A DNA stretch of 64,000 nt from Rhizobium mayense (lineage in GTDB: Bacteria; Pseudomonadota; Alphaproteobacteria; Rhizobiales; Rhizobiaceae), in contig NZ_JARFYM010000013.1 of assembly GCF_030272705.1 (NCBI RefSeq), positions 1-64,000 of the forward strand, given 5' to 3'. Below are positions 3,026-46,985 of this stretch, one piece after another. The first letter of the stretch is position 1. Each line of letters begins with the position of its first letter. The notes beneath the pieces are model-generated. The model made no database searches. It had not been told where the DNA came from and saw only the letters and a list, made by a program, of their open reading frames with translations. The translations under genes and the position numbers were made by a program.

Positions 3026-3051
3026 GGAACTTTTCGTTACATCGCTGCGTT
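3026..3051 (+). promoter_or_regulatory. EcfG-type promoter (GGAAC-N17-CGTT)
   Basis: GGAAC at 3026-3030 and CGTT at 3048-3051 with a 17-base spacer match the consensus of the alphaproteobacterial general stress sigma factor EcfG. It lies in the gap after hmuV, about 130 bases before the DUF883 gene, and is one of four exact matches within 4.2 kb around the ecfG locus. Confidence 0.7.
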
Positions 3052-3179: not shown

Positions 3180-3530
3180 ATGGCACCATCCATCCTCCAT
3201 TCGGCGCGAGCCAAGCGTAATGGCGGCAGCTTGCACGACATCGAAGCCAGCATCGAAGAGCAGATCGAACATCTGCGCAACGAAATTGCCGCTTTCGCCA
3301 AGGTTGTCGGTGAAAACAGCGCCAAGCAGAGCCAGACGATGCGCGCGCGCGCCGAGACTAGCTACGAGGATCTCACGGCTCGCGGCGAAGAACTGCTGCG
3401 TGAGCTGCAGCACGGCTATGTCAGGGGCACGCGGGAAATGCGCAGGACGGTGCGCCAGCATCCCATTGCCACCATCGGGGCTGCTGCAGCTTTCGGATTG
3501 GCAGTTGCCCTGCTTCTTTCGCGCCGTTGA
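3180..3530 (+). CDS. DUF883 / ElaB-YqjD-like membrane-anchored protein
   Basis: 116 residues. A charged helical region (IEEQIEHLRNEIAAFAKVVG and on to about residue 85) is followed by RQHPIATIGAAAAFGLAVAL, a single C-terminal membrane segment ending in LLSRR. This is the layout of the DUF883 family (ElaB/YqjD/YgaM), tail-anchored inner-membrane proteins of stressed or stationary cells, some reported to bind ribosomes. A Shine-Dalgarno AAGGGAG stands before the ATG. It is followed nine bases later by a holin-like membrane protein, and both sit behind an EcfG-type promoter, which agrees with a stress role. The molecular function is not known to me. Confidence 0.8.
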   Translation: MAPSILHSARAKRNGGSLHDIEASIEEQIEHLRNEIAAFAKVVGENSAKQSQTMRARAETSYEDLTARGEELLRELQHGYVRGTREMRRTVRQHPIATIGAAAAFGLAVALLLSRR

Positions 3531-3539
3531 GGAGCTTCA

Positions 3540-3944
3540 ATGCTAGCTCCGTTCCTCGGCCTGCTTCTGTCAGGCACTTTGAATCGTACCGTTGCGCGCA
3601 CCAAGCGCAACGGTATTTTTGTGGGCATCGCCGCGATCCTCATTTTGACAGCCTACGCCTTTGCGCTGGTAGCCGCCGCCATTTGGCTGGCAACCATCTA
3701 CGGAGCAGCCGTTTCGGCGCTGTTGATTGCTGCCGGCGCCCTGCTGCTCGGCCTGATCGTTCTCGTCATCATGGCGATCATCAACAAGCAGGAGGAGCGC
3801 CGCCTCCATGAACGCCGGGTTGCCTTGGAATCCATGGCCGTCGCTGCGCTCGGCCTCGCAAAGTCTCAACCGTTGCTGACCGCTGCAATCGCCACTGCTC
3901 TGGTATTGGGCAATTTGCTGGGAACGAAGAAGCGGGATGATTGA
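3540..3944 (+). CDS. Putative phage-holin-superfamily (DUF1469-like) membrane protein
   Basis: 134 residues. Two long hydrophobic segments (about 28-50 and 55-78, rich in A, I, L, V) are followed by a short charged linker, KQEERRLHERR, and a weaker hydrophobic C-terminal stretch. This resembles the small YqjE/DUF1469 or holin-X-like family often encoded next to DUF883 proteins, as in the E. coli yqjD-yqjE pair. Nine bases separate it from the DUF883 gene, so they are probably one transcript from the EcfG promoter at 3026. No lysis genes are nearby, so a real phage holin role is unlikely. Its 3' end faces ecfG, 30 bases away, with no obvious terminator. Confidence 0.7.
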   Translation: MLAPFLGLLLSGTLNRTVARTKRNGIFVGIAAILILTAYAFALVAAAIWLATIYGAAVSALLIAAGALLLGLIVLVIMAIINKQEERRLHERRVALESMAVAALGLAKSQPLLTAAIATALVLGNLLGTKKRDD

Positions 3945-3974: not shown

Positions 3975-4526
3975 CTAGAAAGCAAACGCCTTGGACGTCA
4001 GCGGCGCGGAGGTGGCGTCGGGACCGAAGTCCGCTTCGCCGGAAATCTGAAGCAATTCCTGCAGACGCTGCCGGGCTCTGTTGACGCGGCTTTTGATGGT
4101 ACCGACGGCGCAGCCGCAGATCTCTGCAGCCTCCTCATAGGAAAAACCGGAGGCGCCGACGAGGATGATGGCTTCGCGTTGATCGGCCGGTAACTGATCG
4201 AGCGCCTTGCGGAAATCCTGCAGGTCGAGCGCGCCATATTGCGAGGGATGCGTCGCCATCGATTCTGTAAACAGGCCGTCGCTGTCCTGCACCTCGCGGC
4301 CACTTTTGCGCATCTGGCTATAAAGTTCGTTGCGCAGGATGGTGAAGAGCCAGGCCTTCATATTCGTGCCCATCTCGAAATGATCCTGCTTAGCCCAAGC
4401 CTTCATGATCGTGTCCTGCACAAGATCATCGGCGCGGTCGTGGCGGCCGGTCAACGATATGGCGAAGGCACGCAGGCTCGGCAGAGCGGCCAGGAGTTCT
4501 CGCTTGAAGCTCGGTTGCGATTCCAT
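3975..4526 (-). CDS. ecfG: General stress response ECF sigma factor EcfG (RpoE-type)
   Basis: 183 residues. Region 2 (ISLTGRHDRADDLVQDTIMK, then NMKAWLFTILRNELYSQMRK) binds core polymerase and the -10 element; region 4 (LPADQREAIILVGASGFSYE onward with GTIKSRVNRARQRL) binds the -35. The sequence is typical of the EcfG (ECF15) group that runs the alphaproteobacterial general stress response. It follows nepR on the same strand (12-base gap), with phyR divergent, the classic arrangement in which NepR holds EcfG inactive until phosphorylated PhyR removes NepR. Upstream is a near-consensus EcfG promoter, suggesting autoregulation. Rhizobia often have several EcfG paralogues; which one this is cannot be told here. 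Confidence 0.93.
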   Translation of the reverse strand: MESQPSFKRELLAALPSLRAFAISLTGRHDRADDLVQDTIMKAWAKQDHFEMGTNMKAWLFTILRNELYSQMRKSGREVQDSDGLFTESMATHPSQYGALDLQDFRKALDQLPADQREAIILVGASGFSYEEAAEICGCAVGTIKSRVNRARQRLQELLQISGEADFGPDATSAPLTSKAFAF

Positions 4527-4538
4527 GACGCTTCCTCC

Positions 4539-4745
4539 TTAATCGGAGAGTTTTGCGGAAGCTAACCGCTCAGCCTGATCCAGCTTCTCAAGCAGGTCAA
4601 GGAAACGATCGGGGATAGCTTCATCCTGCACCGCAGCGTAGAAGGACCGCAGCCGGTTACCGATCTGATTGTTGGGATCGAGGATATCGACCGCGCGCAC
4701 GTCAGGCCGTTTGCGGTCCGCGTCCTCTTGATTTTGGGTAGTCAT
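4539..4745 (-). CDS. nepR: Anti-sigma factor NepR
   Basis: 68 residues. The central stretch IGNRLRSFYAAVQDEAIPDR followed by FLDLLEKLDQAE is the conserved NepR core: two helices that wrap around the sigma factor or the sigma-like domain of PhyR. The ends are charged and probably disordered. It precedes ecfG on the same strand and is divergent from phyR, the standard general stress locus. Family knowledge: NepR binds EcfG and keeps it off core polymerase; phospho-PhyR competes for NepR. Small size and composition could cause it to be missed by gene finders, but the core motif and context make the call firm. Confidence 0.92.
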   Translation of the reverse strand: MTTQNQEDADRKRPDVRAVDILDPNNQIGNRLRSFYAAVQDEAIPDRFLDLLEKLDQAERLASAKLSD

Positions 4746-4944: not shown

Positions 4945-5009
4945 TGCATGTCATTGCAGTCTTGGAGGCTGTGTTTCAATTAGAAATTGGTAAAGGGCGG
5001 GAGCCATTG

Positions 5010-5804
5010 ATGACACTTTCCACACGCATTGCGCCGCATCTTCCCTTTCTGCGCCGCTACTCCCGCGCCTTGACAGGGACACAGACATCGGGAGACGCCT
5101 ATGTCGCAGCCGTTTTGGAAGCGATCATTGCCGATCTTTCCATCTTCCCGGACACCTCCAACGACCGCGTCGCCCTTTATAAACTCTTCACCAAGCTGTT
5201 CGGTTCCTCGGCAGTTCAGATTCCCGAGCCGACATCCCCCTATGCTTGGGAGCAGCGCGCCTCGGTGAATCTCGCCAAGGTTTCTCCGGTCGCCCGCCAG
5301 GCCTTCCTTCTTGCCTCGGTCGAAAATTTCCGCCTCGGCGAGATCGCCGATATTCTCGACGTCCCTGAAACCGAGGCCATGAACCTGCTCGACAAGGCGT
5401 CGCAGGAAATTTCGCGCCAGGTCGCGACCGATATCATGATCATCGAGGATGAACCGCTGATCGCGATGGACATCGAGCAGATGGTGGAAAGCCTCGGTCA
5501 TCGGGTCACCGGCATCGCCCGCACCCATGCGGAGGCGGTTGCTCTTCACAATGCCACCAACCCCAGCATGGTGCTCGCCGACATCCAGCTCGCCGACGGC
5601 AGCTCCGGCATTGACGCGGTCAACGACATCCTCAAGTCATCCAGCATTCCGGTCATTTTCATCACCGCCTTCCCGGAGCGCTTGCTGACCGGCGAGCGGC
5701 CGGAGCCGACCTTCCTTGTGACCAAGCCATTCAATCCCGACATGGTGAAAGCCCTGATCAGCCAGGCCCTTTTCTTTAACGAAACCACAAAGGTGGCCGC
5801 CTGA
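5010..5804 (+). CDS. phyR: General stress response anti-anti-sigma response regulator PhyR
   Basis: 264 residues. Residues 1-135 form an EcfG-like sigma domain (MTLSTRIAPHLPFLRRYSRA at the start; region-4-like LASVENFRLGEIADILDVPE) without DNA binding function; residues 142-260 form a receiver domain with acidic pocket IIEDEP, phosphoacceptor Asp191 in LADIQL, and Lys239 in VTKPF. This domain order is unique to PhyR. When phosphorylated it binds NepR and frees EcfG. The frame is open back to 4944, but ATG 5010 follows a GGGCGGGAG ribosome site and gives the family's normal N-terminus. It is divergent from nepR-ecfG and followed by a histidine kinase gene. Confidence 0.95.
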   Translation: MTLSTRIAPHLPFLRRYSRALTGTQTSGDAYVAAVLEAIIADLSIFPDTSNDRVALYKLFTKLFGSSAVQIPEPTSPYAWEQRASVNLAKVSPVARQAFLLASVENFRLGEIADILDVPETEAMNLLDKASQEISRQVATDIMIIEDEPLIAMDIEQMVESLGHRVTGIARTHAEAVALHNATNPSMVLADIQLADGSSGIDAVNDILKSSSIPVIFITAFPERLLTGERPEPTFLVTKPFNPDMVKALISQALFFNETTKVAA

Positions 5805-5825: not shown

Positions 5826-5850
5826 GGAACAAAGATCGCGGCTGCACGTT
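5826..5850 (+). promoter_or_regulatory. EcfG-type promoter before the HWE kinase (GGAAC-N16-CGTT)
   Basis: GGAAC 5826-5830 and CGTT 5847-5850 with a 16-base spacer, in the gap between phyR and the kinase gene. The kinase GTG is about 120 bases downstream, so a leader RNA of roughly 115 bases is predicted. Confidence 0.72.
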
Positions 5851-5972
5851 GCGGCGGCTTAGGGACGCTTTACCGACTGTTATAGCGATTGACTGTATAA
5901 ACCGGGCTGAGTTCTTCCGGTCGAGAATGCCCTGTCGGCGGGTTTCTCGAAATTCGAGTGAAAGGCGAGCCG

Positions 5973-6983
5973 GTGAATACGACTGAACCATTATCGGGTG
6001 CGCCTTTGAGTTTTGAAGGCAAGGCCGCTATGATGGAGCGCGCGCTTGGCAGCGCTGGTATTTCGATTCTCTTCCAGGACGCAAACCTTGCGATTCGCTA
6101 CGCGGAAAACTTGCCCGACCACCTGAAACCGTCCCTGACCATCGGTGGCACGGATCTCCATCTCTTCGGCGAGAAAAACGGCGAACACCTGTTGCAGCTC
6201 AAACGCGGCGTGCTGGAAAGCGGCAAGCCCGCCACCGCGGAGGTAGAGCTGGTGACGGGCGATGGGTTGCGCATTTACGAGTTGAAGATCGAGCGTGTCG
6301 GCGGGCGTAAGACGCAGGGTCTGCTTTCCGTCATCTCCGAAATTACGGAGAGCCGGCATCGCGAAAAAGTATTGAAATCACTGCTGCGCGAGCTGTCGCA
6401 CCGCTCCAAGAATCTATTGGCAATCATCCAGGGCATTGCCACGCAGACGGCGCGTCACACAGTGTCGCTCGATAACTTCCTGATCAAATTCCGCGGTCGC
6501 CTGCAGTCGCTGTCGAACTCCCAGGACTTGATCACCGATTCGAGCTGGCGCGGCGCCTATCTGTTCGAACTCGCTGAAAAGCAGTTCGCCCCCTATTGGC
6601 CCGATGCAGGGACGCCGATGCCGATCTACGGGATCAATGCGCATCTCACTCCGAATGCCGCCGTCCATCTCGGCCTCGCATTACACGAACTGATCGTCAA
6701 TTCCGCCTCCCACGGGGCCATCTCCGCCGGTGCCACCAGTATCACGCTGAACTGCAAGGAGGCCGAACTCAACGGCAAGAAGGCGATCGAAGTGGCCTGG
6801 TCGGAACACTTCTACTTCCCTTCCGACCATGAATTCGAGGACAACAGCTTCAGCCGCACCGTGTTGGAGCGGGTCGTCCCCACCTCCATGAACGGGCGCG
6901 CCCAGTTCGCAATCGACGATGACAGCATCGGCTATCGCTTGACGATTCCCGAAACCGAATATGAGATTCTGAAGCGGCGCTGA
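5973..6983 (+). CDS. HWE-family sensor histidine kinase, probable PhyR kinase
   Basis: 336 residues from GTG 5973, chosen because AAAGGCGAG lies just before it; GTG 5958 is a weaker alternative. No membrane segment is visible, so it is likely cytoplasmic. The N-terminal 125 residues look like a PAS sensor domain. The phosphorylation box LRELSHRSKNLLAIIQGIA carries the histidine near residue 143. The ATPase part has a histidine-containing N box (LHELIVNSASHGA) and a W-x-E (WSE), the two marks of the HWE family. Kinases of this kind next to phyR usually feed phosphate to PhyR. An exact EcfG promoter before it predicts positive feedback. The stimulus is unknown. Confidence 0.88.
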   Translation: MNTTEPLSGAPLSFEGKAAMMERALGSAGISILFQDANLAIRYAENLPDHLKPSLTIGGTDLHLFGEKNGEHLLQLKRGVLESGKPATAEVELVTGDGLRIYELKIERVGGRKTQGLLSVISEITESRHREKVLKSLLRELSHRSKNLLAIIQGIATQTARHTVSLDNFLIKFRGRLQSLSNSQDLITDSSWRGAYLFELAEKQFAPYWPDAGTPMPIYGINAHLTPNAAVHLGLALHELIVNSASHGAISAGATSITLNCKEAELNGKKAIEVAWSEHFYFPSDHEFEDNSFSRTVLERVVPTSMNGRAQFAIDDDSIGYRLTIPETEYEILKRR

Positions 6984-7003: not shown

Positions 7004-7131
7004 AAACGAAAACAGCCAGTGCGAGGGCGGCGCACTGGCTGCTTTTCACTCATCGGGAGGGGACCGTGAGTAGATGCCCGGTGATGAGTTTTGGGGGCGT
7101 GCATCGGTTGATGCGATCATCACCAAGACAC
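7004..7131 (-). ncRNA. Candidate stress-induced small RNA (or leader of a 24-codon ORF)
   Basis: An exact EcfG promoter on the minus strand (7162-7138) predicts a start near 7131, and a perfect 11-bp terminator stem with TTTTCGTTT ends it near 7004: a transcript of about 128 bases, antisense to the 3' untranslated end of the kinase mRNA. It contains CCCCTCCC, a C-rich stretch that could pair with ribosome binding sites. It also contains a 24-codon ORF, ATG 7120 to TGA 7046, with AAGAAGG ten bases before, ending just before the terminator. I cannot tell an RNA regulator from a small-protein mRNA. Not matched to any named RNA. Confidence 0.45.
7013..7046. terminator. Bidirectional intrinsic terminator
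   Basis: CAGCCAGTGCG (7013-7023) and CGCACTGGCTG (7031-7041) make a perfect 11-bp stem with a 7-base loop. CTTTT follows on the plus strand (end of the phyR/kinase transcript) and TTTTCGTTT on the minus strand (end of the candidate small RNA). Confidence 0.85.
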
Positions 7132-7137
7132 CTTCTT

Positions 7138-7162
7138 AACGACGGTGCTCGGCCTTGGTTCC
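7138..7162 (-). promoter_or_regulatory. EcfG-type promoter on the minus strand (GGAAC-N16-CGTT)
   Basis: Read on the minus strand, GGAAC at 7162-7158, a 16-base spacer, and CGTT at 7141-7138. No annotated protein gene lies in its path before the terminator at 7041-7013, so it predicts a short transcript. Confidence 0.65.
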
Positions 7163-27785: not shown

Positions 27786-29498
27786 TTAAAACAGGAAATA
27801 GCGCTGCGCCATCGGCAATACCGTCGCCGGCTCGCAGGTCAGAAGTTCGCCGTCGGCACGCACCTCGTAGGTCTCCGGATCGACCTCGATATGCGGCGTC
27901 AGGCTGTTGTGGACCATCGAAGCCTTGGAGATGCCGCCGCGGGTGTTCTTGACGGCCACAAGGCTCTTGGCGACACCGAGCCTGCCGGCGAGGCCTGCAG
28001 CAAGCGACGCCTGCGACACGAAGGTGACCGAAGAGTTCGTCAGGCTCTTGCCAAAAGAGGCAAACATCGGGCGGTAGTGCACCGGCTGGGGCGTCGGGAT
28101 CGAGGCGTTCGGGTCGCCCATGGGCGCGGCCGCGATCGAGCCGCCGAGCAGGATCATGTCCGGCTTGACGCCGAAAAAGGCCGGGTTCCAGATCACCAGG
28201 TCAGCGCGCTTGCCGACTTCGATCGAGCCGATTTCATGGCTGAGGCCATGGGCGATCGCCGGGTTGATGGTGTATTTCGCGATGTAGCGCTTGACGCGGA
28301 AATTGTCGTTGTCGCCGGTTTCCTGGGCAAGACGGCCGCGCTGGCGCTTCATCTTGTCAGCGGTCTGCCAGGTGCGGATCGCGACTTCGCCGACGCGGCC
28401 CATGGCTTGGCTGTCGGACGAAATGATCGAGAAGGCGCCGATATCGTGAAGAATGTCCTCCGCCGCAATCGTCTCCTTACGGATGCGGCTTTCGGCGAAG
28501 GCGATGTCTTCTGGGATCGACGGCGACAGGTGATGGCAGACCATCAGCATGTCGAGATGCTCGGCGATCGTGTTAACCGTATAGGGACGCGTCGGGTTGG
28601 TCGAGGACGGTATGACATTCGGCTGGCCGCAGATCTTAATGATATCAGGCGCATGGCCGCCGCCGGCCCCTTCGGTATGAAAGGCATGGATGGTGCGGCC
28701 CTTGATGGCGCTGATTGTATCCTCGACGAAACCACTTTCATTCAACGTATCCGTGTGGATCATAACCTGCACGTCATATTCATCGGCGACCGTCAGGCAG
28801 CAGTCGATTGCGCCGGGCGTCGTCCCCCAATCCTCGTGCAGCTTCAATGAGGTAGCGCCCGCAAGCACCATCTCCTCGAGCGCGCCGGGCAGCGAGGCAT
28901 TGCCCTTGCCGGCAAAGGCGAGGTTCATGGGAAAGGCATCGGCAGCCTCGATCATGCGGGCGATGTGCCATGGGCCGGGTGTGCAGGTGGTCGCGAGCGT
29001 CCCATGCGCCGGGCCCGTGCCGCCGCCAAGCATTGTCGTCAGGCCACTCATCAGCGCCTCTTCGATCTGCTGCGGGCAGATGAAGTGGATATGGCTATCC
29101 ATGCCGCCGGCGGTGACGATCTTGCCCTCACCCGCGATCGCCTCCGTGCCCGGCCCAACGATGATGTTGACACCCGGCTGTGTATCCGGATTGCCAGCCT
29201 TGCCGATAGCGACGATACGGCCCTCCTTGAGTCCGATATCGGCTTTGACGATCCCCCATGTATCGACGATCAGCGCGTTGGTAATGACTGTATCGACGGC
29301 CCCATCGGCCCGCGTCACCTGGCTCTGGCCCATGCCGTCACGTATGACCTTGCCACCGCCGAACTTCACCTCCTCGCCATAGGTGGTGAAATCCTTCTCC
29401 ACCTCGATGAAAAGCTCGGTGTCGGCAAGCCGCACCTTGTCACCAATGGTCGGCCCGAACATGTTGGCATACGCGGCGCGCGAGATCTTGTAGGGCAT
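27786..29498 (-). CDS. ureC: Urease alpha subunit UreC
   Basis: 570 residues, the usual length. Nickel ligands and catalysis: [14 protein letters not shown], the carbamylated Lys in [42 protein letters not shown], and the flap [20 protein letters not shown] with the catalytic His. It hydrolyses urea to ammonia and carbamate as part of the cytoplasmic UreABC complex. It is preceded by a GT29-like gene with a three-base gap, not directly by ureB as in many bacteria, an order also known from other rhizobia. Confidence 0.98.
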
Positions 29499-45734: not shown

Positions 45735-46985
45735 TCAATGCAGATTCGGCTGCGGACCCTTGCCGCCTTCGTCGATCGCAAAACCGCGTGCGAAACGGTC
45801 CAGACGCATGAAGCGGCTGACATCGTGGCTCTCGCCCTTGGCGATCAAGTGCGCGAAGCAGAAGCCGGAGGCTGGCGTCGCTTTGAAGCCGCCATAGTTC
45901 CAGCCGCAGTTCAGATAGAGATTGTCGATCGGCGTCCGGTCGATGATCGGCGAGCCATCCATGCTCATATCCATCACGCCGCCCCAGCTACGCAGCACGC
46001 GGACTCGCGACAGGCCGGGAATCAGCGAGACCCCCTCCTCCATCGTATGCTCGACAGTGGCGAGATTGCCGCGCTGGGCGTAGGAGCTGTAATAATCGAT
46101 ATCGGCGCCGAAGACCAAGCCGCCCTTGTCCGATTGCGATATATAAAAGTGGCCGGCGCCGTAGGTGATGACGTGATCGATCACCGGCTTCAGCCCTTCG
46201 GAGACGAACGCCTGCAGAACGTGGGTTTCGATCGGCAGTTCCAGATCCGCCATGCGGCCGAGGATCGAGGTGTGGCCTGCGGCCGCCAACGCCAGCTTAT
46301 CGCAGCCGATGAAGCCGCGCGTGGTCTCGACACCGGTCACGGCACCACCTTCCCGACGGATGCCGATCACCTCGCATTGCTGGATGAGATCCACGCCGCG
46401 GCTGTCGGCGCCGCGCGCATAACCCCAGGCGACAGCATCGTGCCGCGCCGTGCCGCCACGCGCCTGAAGCAGCCCACCGAAGATCGGAAAACGCGCATGA
46501 TCGAAATTGAGATAGGGCATCATCTTGCGAACCTGCTCGCGGCTCAAGAGTTCCGCATCGACGCCGTGCATGCGCATGGCGTTGCCGCGCCGGGCATACT
46601 CGTCGCGCTGTCCGTCGGAATGAAAGAGATTGATGATGCCGCGTTGGGAGACCATGGCGTTGTAGTTGAAGTCCTGCTCCAGCCCTTCCCAAAGCTTCAT
46701 CGAAAATTCGTAGAATGGCTCGTTGCCGGGCAGGAGATAATTGGAGCGGATGATCGTGGTGTTACGGCCGACGTTGCCGGAGCCGAGATAGCTCTTTTCC
46801 AACACGGCAACATTGGTGATGCCGAACTCCTTGGCGAGATAATAAGCCGTCGCCAGTCCATGCCCGCCGCCGCCGACGATGATCACATCATAATGCGGTT
46901 TCGGCTCCGGCGTTCGCCAGACAGACTGCCAATGACGGTTTCCTGAAAGCGCCTGCTTCAGAACCTGATATGCCGAATAACGCAT
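45735..46985 (-). CDS. soxB: Sarcosine oxidase beta subunit SoxB
   Basis: 416 residues from ATG 46985 (MRYSAYQVLKQALSGNRHWQ), the family length; the frame open to 47171 has no support. FAD site YDVIIVGGGGHGLATAYYLA near residue 33, and GSGNVGRNTTIIRSNYLLPG, close to where FMN binds covalently. C-terminal GWNYGGFKATPASG FCFAHLIA closes the FAD site. It holds FAD and FMN and oxidises sarcosine. First gene of soxB-D-A-G; the promoter is in the 328-base gap upstream. Confidence 0.95.
   Translation of the reverse strand: MRYSAYQVLKQALSGNRHWQSVWRTPEPKPHYDVIIVGGGGHGLATAYYLAKEFGITNVAVLEKSYLGSGNVGRNTTIIRSNYLLPGNEPFYEFSMKLWEGLEQDFNYNAMVSQRGIINLFHSDGQRDEYARRGNAMRMHGVDAELLSREQVRKMMPYLNFDHARFPIFGGLLQARGGTARHDAVAWGYARGADSRGVDLIQQCEVIGIRREGGAVTGVETTRGFIGCDKLALAAAGHTSILGRMADLELPIETHVLQAFVSEGLKPVIDHVITYGAGHFYISQSDKGGLVFGADIDYYSSYAQRGNLATVEHTMEEGVSLIPGLSRVRVLRSWGGVMDMSMDGSPIIDRTPIDNLYLNCGWNYGGFKATPASGFCFAHLIAKGESHDVSRFMRLDRFARGFAIDEGGKGPQPNLH

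Follow-up and report, generated by a model that had tools for sequence, protein, structure and literature searches.

Does the gap beside the general stress genes of Rhizobium mayense give rise to a small RNA, to a small protein, or to nothing beyond a terminator for the neighbouring kinase gene? The gap, on whose minus strand a preliminary description had placed a promoter facing a terminator, lies within the window, by which we mean the whole stretch of 64,000 nucleotides that was analysed. The stress locus at whose edge it is found comprises the following genes, and a dihydropyrimidine-dehydrogenase-like gene pair follows it.

3975–4526, minus strand: ECF sigma factor (NF009169, 5.4e-118; PF04542; PF08281), for which the family model gives only the name 'RNA polymerase sigma factor'; taken as EcfG by its place beside nepR and phyR.
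4539–4745, minus strand: taken as NepR from its position, and because tblastn finds it conserved next to ecfG and phyR elsewhere.
5007–5804, plus strand: PhyR (NF006623, 9.8e-117).
5958–6983, plus strand: HWE histidine kinase (tcrY in R. etli), the convergent neighbour of the unit described here (PF07536, 3.6e-22); its start codon is uncertain.

On the minus strand of the gap, the sequence GGAACCAAGGCCGAGCACCGTCGTT at 7162–7138 is an exact pattern match to an EcfG promoter, and the elements that we distinguish there are these.

7138–7162, minus strand: EcfG promoter GGAAC-N16-CGTT, exact match, conserved in the genus.
7009–7131, minus strand: predicted small RNA transcription unit (ReC64/GsrN-like) of about 123 nt, from a covariance model match and the fold, both ends being putative.
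7073–7132, minus strand: 5' domain, with a covarying long stem (arms 7132–7117 and 7087–7073), an inner hairpin (7114–7110 with 7105–7101) and a single-stranded CCCCC run (7097–7093).
7048–7071, minus strand: second hairpin (hairpin 2), ACUCACGGUCCCCUCCCGAUGAGU, with a C-rich loop, from conservation and accessibility.
7046–7120, minus strand: 24-codon ORF noted in the preliminary description, judged not coding.
7009–7045, minus strand: intrinsic terminator hairpin with a C-rich loop, from sequence, fold and compensatory stem changes.

The promoter pattern with a spacer of 16 or 17 bases (GGAAC-N16-17-CGTT) occurs at five sites in the window compared to 1.17 ± 0.97 in shuffled sequence, and none of 100 shuffles reached five. 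GGAAC-N16-[C/A]GTT is kept upstream of the unit in all 37 same-genus genomes (CGTT in 32, AGTT in five). A larger set of 105 loci was obtained by scanning genome contigs for ACTCACGGTCCCCTCCCGRTGAGT, and includes Rhizobium species, isolates named 'Rhizobiales bacterium' and one Rhizobiaceae MAG; an EcfG-type site is present at every one of them (94 with CGTT, 11 with AGTT). The replacement of CGTT by AGTT in the −10 element, seen at L016, L023, L035, L036 and L037 as well as at the 11 named loci, reads GTAGTT in many cases.

Other matches to the pattern within the window were also recorded. Another exact EcfG site lies at 5826–5850 on the plus strand, between phyR and the HWE kinase gene, and the kinase may therefore itself be stress-induced. 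A site with a 17-base spacer (3026–3051, plus strand) is located upstream of ORFs 3180–3530 and 3540–3944, which we take to resemble ElaB/DUF883-type and phage-holin-like membrane proteins. An exact EcfG-type match at 46218–46242 on the minus strand sits amid coding-like sequence and is probably a chance occurrence.

Assuming a start 5–9 nt past the CGTT and an end at 7009, the RNA is predicted to be 121–125 nt long, near the figure of about 128 bases proposed earlier on. The exact minus-strand promoter and the 11-bp terminator stem with a T run some 100 bases on, as originally described, were both borne out, the distance from promoter to terminator stem being 97 nt. The terminator has an 11-bp stem and a 7-nt loop at 7041–7013, after which the minus strand reads TTTTCGTTT (TTTT); in the predicted fold, four Us are pulled into a 15-bp stem spanning 7045–7009. 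A strict terminator expression applied to the first 80 of the 105 loci matched 77, with stem or tail variants at the remaining three, and the 52 nt located 3' of the hairpin 2 motif fold below −15 kcal/mol at all 105. The whole unit folds at −57.6 kcal/mol (z = −6.7; none of 200 shuffles was equally stable), and two covariance models matched 7131–7009, with 96.5 bits for the first (R1) and 116.7 bits for the second (R2), whose building set contains this very sequence. Overall, promoter and unit together are not a chance occurrence.

The predicted structure is shared across the genus. The 37 same-genus sequences, 28 of them distinct, fold broadly on one plan (5' stem domain, hairpin 2, terminator), and in the 5' stem the sequence changes with the pairs retained. 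Covariation had been suggested as a check on the locus, and the fold indeed covaries strongly: in a 30-row model-guided alignment that includes nine sequences from other genera, 96.2% of cells are paired and two-sided changes occur at 25 of 37 pairs, compared to 10.7 ± 1.7 in shuffled alignments and 5–9 for slid structures; model-guided alignments lean towards the structure, and the starting alignment (A2), made by plain MAFFT and nearly gap-free, holds the same two-sided changes. Both sides change in all 11 pairs of helix 1 and in all five of helix 2, and the terminator stem carries compensatory changes as well. In the first MAFFT alignment (A1) the 5' stem was out of register and just a single pair covaried, and the model-guided alignments were used instead; alignment A5 is without L060, and the L055 row appears misaligned over hairpin 2.

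Two C-rich stretches upstream of the terminator are predicted to be exposed. Hairpin 2 contains CCCCTCCC at 7062–7055 (minus strand), and its CCCC (7062–7059) has a predicted unpaired probability of 0.98–1.00, the last two C of CCCCUCCC being mostly paired in the prediction; for the first C run, CCCCC, the corresponding values are 0.85–0.99. The first 18 nt of hairpin 2, ACTCACGGTCCCCTCCCG, are identical in 36 of the 37 same-genus genomes, the 37th having one extra C. Stem and loop of this hairpin vary little within the genus, and in other genera the loop is C-rich with a different sequence. The first C run is reduced to GCCC in some sequences.

A search with the 197-bp unit as the query gave a match in every one of the 37 same-genus genomes (own genome included; 97% identity in the closest relative), whereas the 24 genomes that represent other families of the order gave none. 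Conservation of promoter and terminator in close relatives had been named at the outset as a point on which the proposal depended, and both are kept, together with the C-rich hairpin, in 37 of 37. Within the family, R1 found a match in 16 of 199 genomes, and R2 (E up to 0.01) in at least 24 of 199, representing at least 13 of 109 genera; the 175 genomes without an R2 match were scored at 18 candidates each, and the counts are lower bounds because only these 18 candidates per genome were scored under strict filters. With the RNA alone as the query, all 20 R2 matches outside the genus adjoin phyR or the kinase gene; 11 of the 20 are absent from the model's building set, and 17 have an upstream GGAAC-N16/17-NGTT, no recognisable promoter being present at L061, L257 and L260.

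Several matches were set aside. The R1 match in genome G082 (L059) is false, since it has no stress gene or promoter and was lost with R2, and three matches in other families of the order (L265–L267, E 0.004–0.007), without stress genes or promoter, were treated likewise. Model matches on the opposite strand (20–31 bits) were taken as echoes of the palindromic terminator. The plasmid collection searched gave no match to the RNA, and Rfam 15 has no family at gathering score over the small RNA locus; at E up to 10, just two matches appeared there, to a microRNA family and a snoRNA family, far below the gathering score. Elsewhere in the window, Rfam RF02514 (5' ureB sRNA) matches 29057–29346 on the plus strand (E 1.5e-28), antisense to the start of ORF 27786–29498 (minus strand), which presumably encodes the urease alpha subunit; this match is probably an echo of coding conservation and not an RNA.

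The RNA is already known, having been published as ReC64 in 2010–2013. We identify the window RNA as the orthologue of ReC64 from R. etli by its locus, its promoter and the statement by Jans et al. that ReC64 is conserved in R. leguminosarum bv. viciae 3841 (PMC3892343). We found that the chromosome of strain 3841 (L133; NC_008380.1, titled R. johnstonii 3841) carries the RNA. As in the window, ReC64 of R. etli CFN42 is described as an intergenic ncRNA downstream of phyR-tcrY with an EcfG consensus promoter, an EcfG1 site from which 5' RACE placed the start (Jans et al. 2013, PMC3892343). According to the same paper, reporter activity was abolished in the ecfG1 and double mutants, stood at 82% in the ecfG2 mutant, and was activated in E. 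coli by both EcfG1 and EcfG2. On Northern blots, Vercruysse et al. (2010, PMC2881028) saw ReC64 as a band of 88 nt, which they regarded as the expected primary transcript, along with a larger band whose origin they left unexplained. ReC64 was up in saline shock in a 2014 RNA-Seq study, the matrix search of which assigned its promoters to SigA and RpoH, not EcfG (PMC4167512). The original proposal of an EcfG-driven stress small RNA was therefore right, as 5' RACE, reporter, Northern and salt data on R. etli ReC64 show (PMC3892343, PMC2881028, PMC4167512); the idea of a new output of the general stress response was not, ReC64 having been in print since 2010/2013. As a whole, the best explanation of the locus, to which we give a probability of about 0.8, is an EcfG-transcribed, trans-acting orthologue of ReC64 that lies at the edge of the stress locus and has its own terminator.

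One difference concerns length, ReC64 being reported at 88 nt (PMC2881028) compared to the 123 nt predicted for the window RNA. With a start 5–8 nt past the CGTT, an 88-nt RNA in strain 3841 would stop within the linker that precedes the terminator, or at the edge of that linker, and the larger Northern band may therefore correspond to the full-length RNA. The 88-nt form in print may thus have lost its terminator, similar to the 5' isoform that cleavage yields from GsrN, the full-length form of which is Hfq-dependent. Against this, the 2010 authors take the 88-nt RNA as the primary transcript.

A close counterpart is GsrN of Caulobacter crescentus, with which the window RNA shares a Sigma-EcfG promoter, a place near ecfG-nepR-phyR and an exposed C-rich loop. 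From these three features Tien et al. (2018, PMC5869019) predicted homologues of GsrN in R. etli, S. meliloti, Brucella abortus and Agrobacterium radiobacter. However, a second C-rich hairpin is present in the rhizobial RNA, which section 14 of that paper does not mention, and model R1 matches the own genome alone among 190 class genomes, which may or may not include a carrier of gsrN. Similar to the window RNA, the rhizobial SmelA075 and SmelA099 have several hairpins with anti-Shine-Dalgarno loops, but their loop sequence is different (CCUCCUCCC), and rpoE2 and phyR are absent from the main text of the paper (PMC3927594). Bsr6 of Brucella abortus is likewise a small RNA that depends on its general stress sigma factor, in this case RpoE1, the box for which is found in the Bsr6 promoter (PMC12772402).

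The ReC64 orthologue probably acts on mRNAs via its C-rich loops. Upon stress, PhyR would free EcfG and the RNA would accumulate, presenting C-rich single strands, namely the CGGUCCCCUCCCG loop and the CCCCC run in the 5' domain; these strands may pair with G-rich Shine-Dalgarno regions or leaders and alter translation or stability of the targets, as suggested by the analogy with GsrN and by the conservation and accessibility of the C-rich loop. A cut between hairpin 2 and the terminator may yield the 88-nt form. Since the first C run is less well conserved than hairpin 2, we propose the latter as the main seed.

Candidate targets were assessed in three ways. A peroxiredoxin-like gene of the same genome (L177 1515–1501, minus strand, G000:C69; named from its sequence) has CGGGAGGGGACC before its start codon, which gives a 12-nt perfect match to hairpin 2 over the Shine-Dalgarno region, and was rejected as a conserved target, since among 15 related genes in 14 other genomes the nearest alone keeps the match, with one mismatch. 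The katG leader was assessed because GsrN pairs with it in Caulobacter; in the own genome (L229), 73 of 100 shuffles did at least as well as this leader with loop 2, and 98 of 100 did so with the first C run. Among 30 katG rows, which include wrongly chosen starts, 10 or fewer of 100 shuffles, keeping single-base composition only, did as well in six rows for hairpin 2 (L227, L234, L239, L242, L243 and L249) and in four for the first run; the own-genome row was relied on because others had the wrong frame or strand, the 'leaders' of L230, L240, L241 and L245 being coding sequence. Genome-wide, GGGAGGGG-N3-11-ATG occurs at 22 sites compared to six for the reversed pattern, and GAGGGGAC-N2-11-ATG at 21 compared to 12, counts that include the small RNA locus and that Shine-Dalgarno composition partly explains. 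Neither the peroxiredoxin gene, the own-genome katG leader nor the genome-wide Shine-Dalgarno-type sites established a target, and the literature searched yielded no functional work on either ReC64 or a rhizobial GsrN. The earlier suggestion that a C-rich motif could pair with ribosome sites is plausible, but the search for a conserved target found none.

A bolder version of this reading, possible but on the whole doubtful, is that the RNA is not simply a GsrN. It would be a multi-loop general-stress riboregulator of the Rhizobiaceae with CGGUCCCCUCCCG as its main seed, a stress-induced anti-Shine-Dalgarno finger. Cut from its terminator to a stable 88-nt form, this single EcfG-made RNA would repress the many mRNAs whose ribosome sites are of the GGGAGGGG type, at the same time as the stress regulon is switched on. 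The odds of this version were lowered because the 2010 authors regard 88 nt as the length of the primary transcript.

An alternative explanation is that the RNA is a decoy, the C-rich hairpins of which titrate a protein or another RNA with no pairing to mRNA leaders. The stem sequence of hairpin 2 (helix 3) is conserved as well as its loop, beyond what loop pairing needs, and each molecule offers three C-rich loops or single strands, as a decoy might. However, such a decoy has no known partner, and the C-rich loop of GsrN works on G-rich mRNA sites (PMC5869019), and we consider this alternative improbable.

The unit could also serve the kinase gene, as a cis-antisense or bidirectional-terminator element that ends or regulates the kinase mRNA. 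The kinase gene is convergent at all 105 pattern loci, its tblastn match ending 76–207 bases from the hairpin 2 motif, and the terminator scanner reports the palindrome on the plus strand only, with TTTT following on the minus strand; the same palindrome may also end the kinase mRNA. Against this, the kinase reading frame stops at 6983, 26 bases past the presumed end of the small RNA at 7009, and any overlap between the two transcripts is therefore at most the shared, self-complementary terminator, beyond which the earlier claim of an RNA that is antisense to the kinase mRNA at its 3' end finds no support. Furthermore, the conserved structure and loops sit upstream of the overlap, and in other genera (L058, L061, L255 and L257–L263) the RNA adjoins phyR and the stretch retrieved around it contains no match to the kinase. 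A main role in kinase mRNA is accordingly quite unlikely, and the trans-acting ReC64 orthologue is retained.

The 24-codon ORF of the preliminary description does exist (ATG at 7120, TGA ending at 7046, minus strand), and its product, a 24-residue stress protein with the RNA as its mRNA, was compared across 117 rows (63 distinct sequences), of which 37 are the same-genus sequences and 80 are the loci that come first among the 105 named ones. That protein is hardly credible: a frame of 24–25 codons from ATG to TGA with the same end point is intact in 20 of the 63, but the other 43 lack an in-frame ATG, contain stops, differ in length or have lost the stop, the common C-terminus SRSPPDE/SRSPPGE results from translating the conserved hairpin in one frame, the variation tracks base pairing with frequent indels in the 5' part, and the ATG, some 11 nt past the presumed start, falls within the 5' stem. 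With no conserved start, frame and stop, the ORF was rejected as coding, and these sequences show that the RNA does not serve as a conserved mRNA.

To the published record of ReC64 the present analysis adds a structure backed by covariation, the C-rich hairpin 2 (CGGUCCCCUCCCG), which is unchanged in almost the whole genus, a family model and the rejection of the ORF, along with the conjecture that the published 88-nt form is without the terminator. The family model permits automatic annotation of an RNA that has no Rfam 15 match. In alphaproteobacteria, sigma factor control of the general stress response has been mapped well, and for the RNA arm of this response outside Caulobacter no established targets were found in the literature searched; the covariation model and the candidate seed make the rhizobial RNA arm testable.
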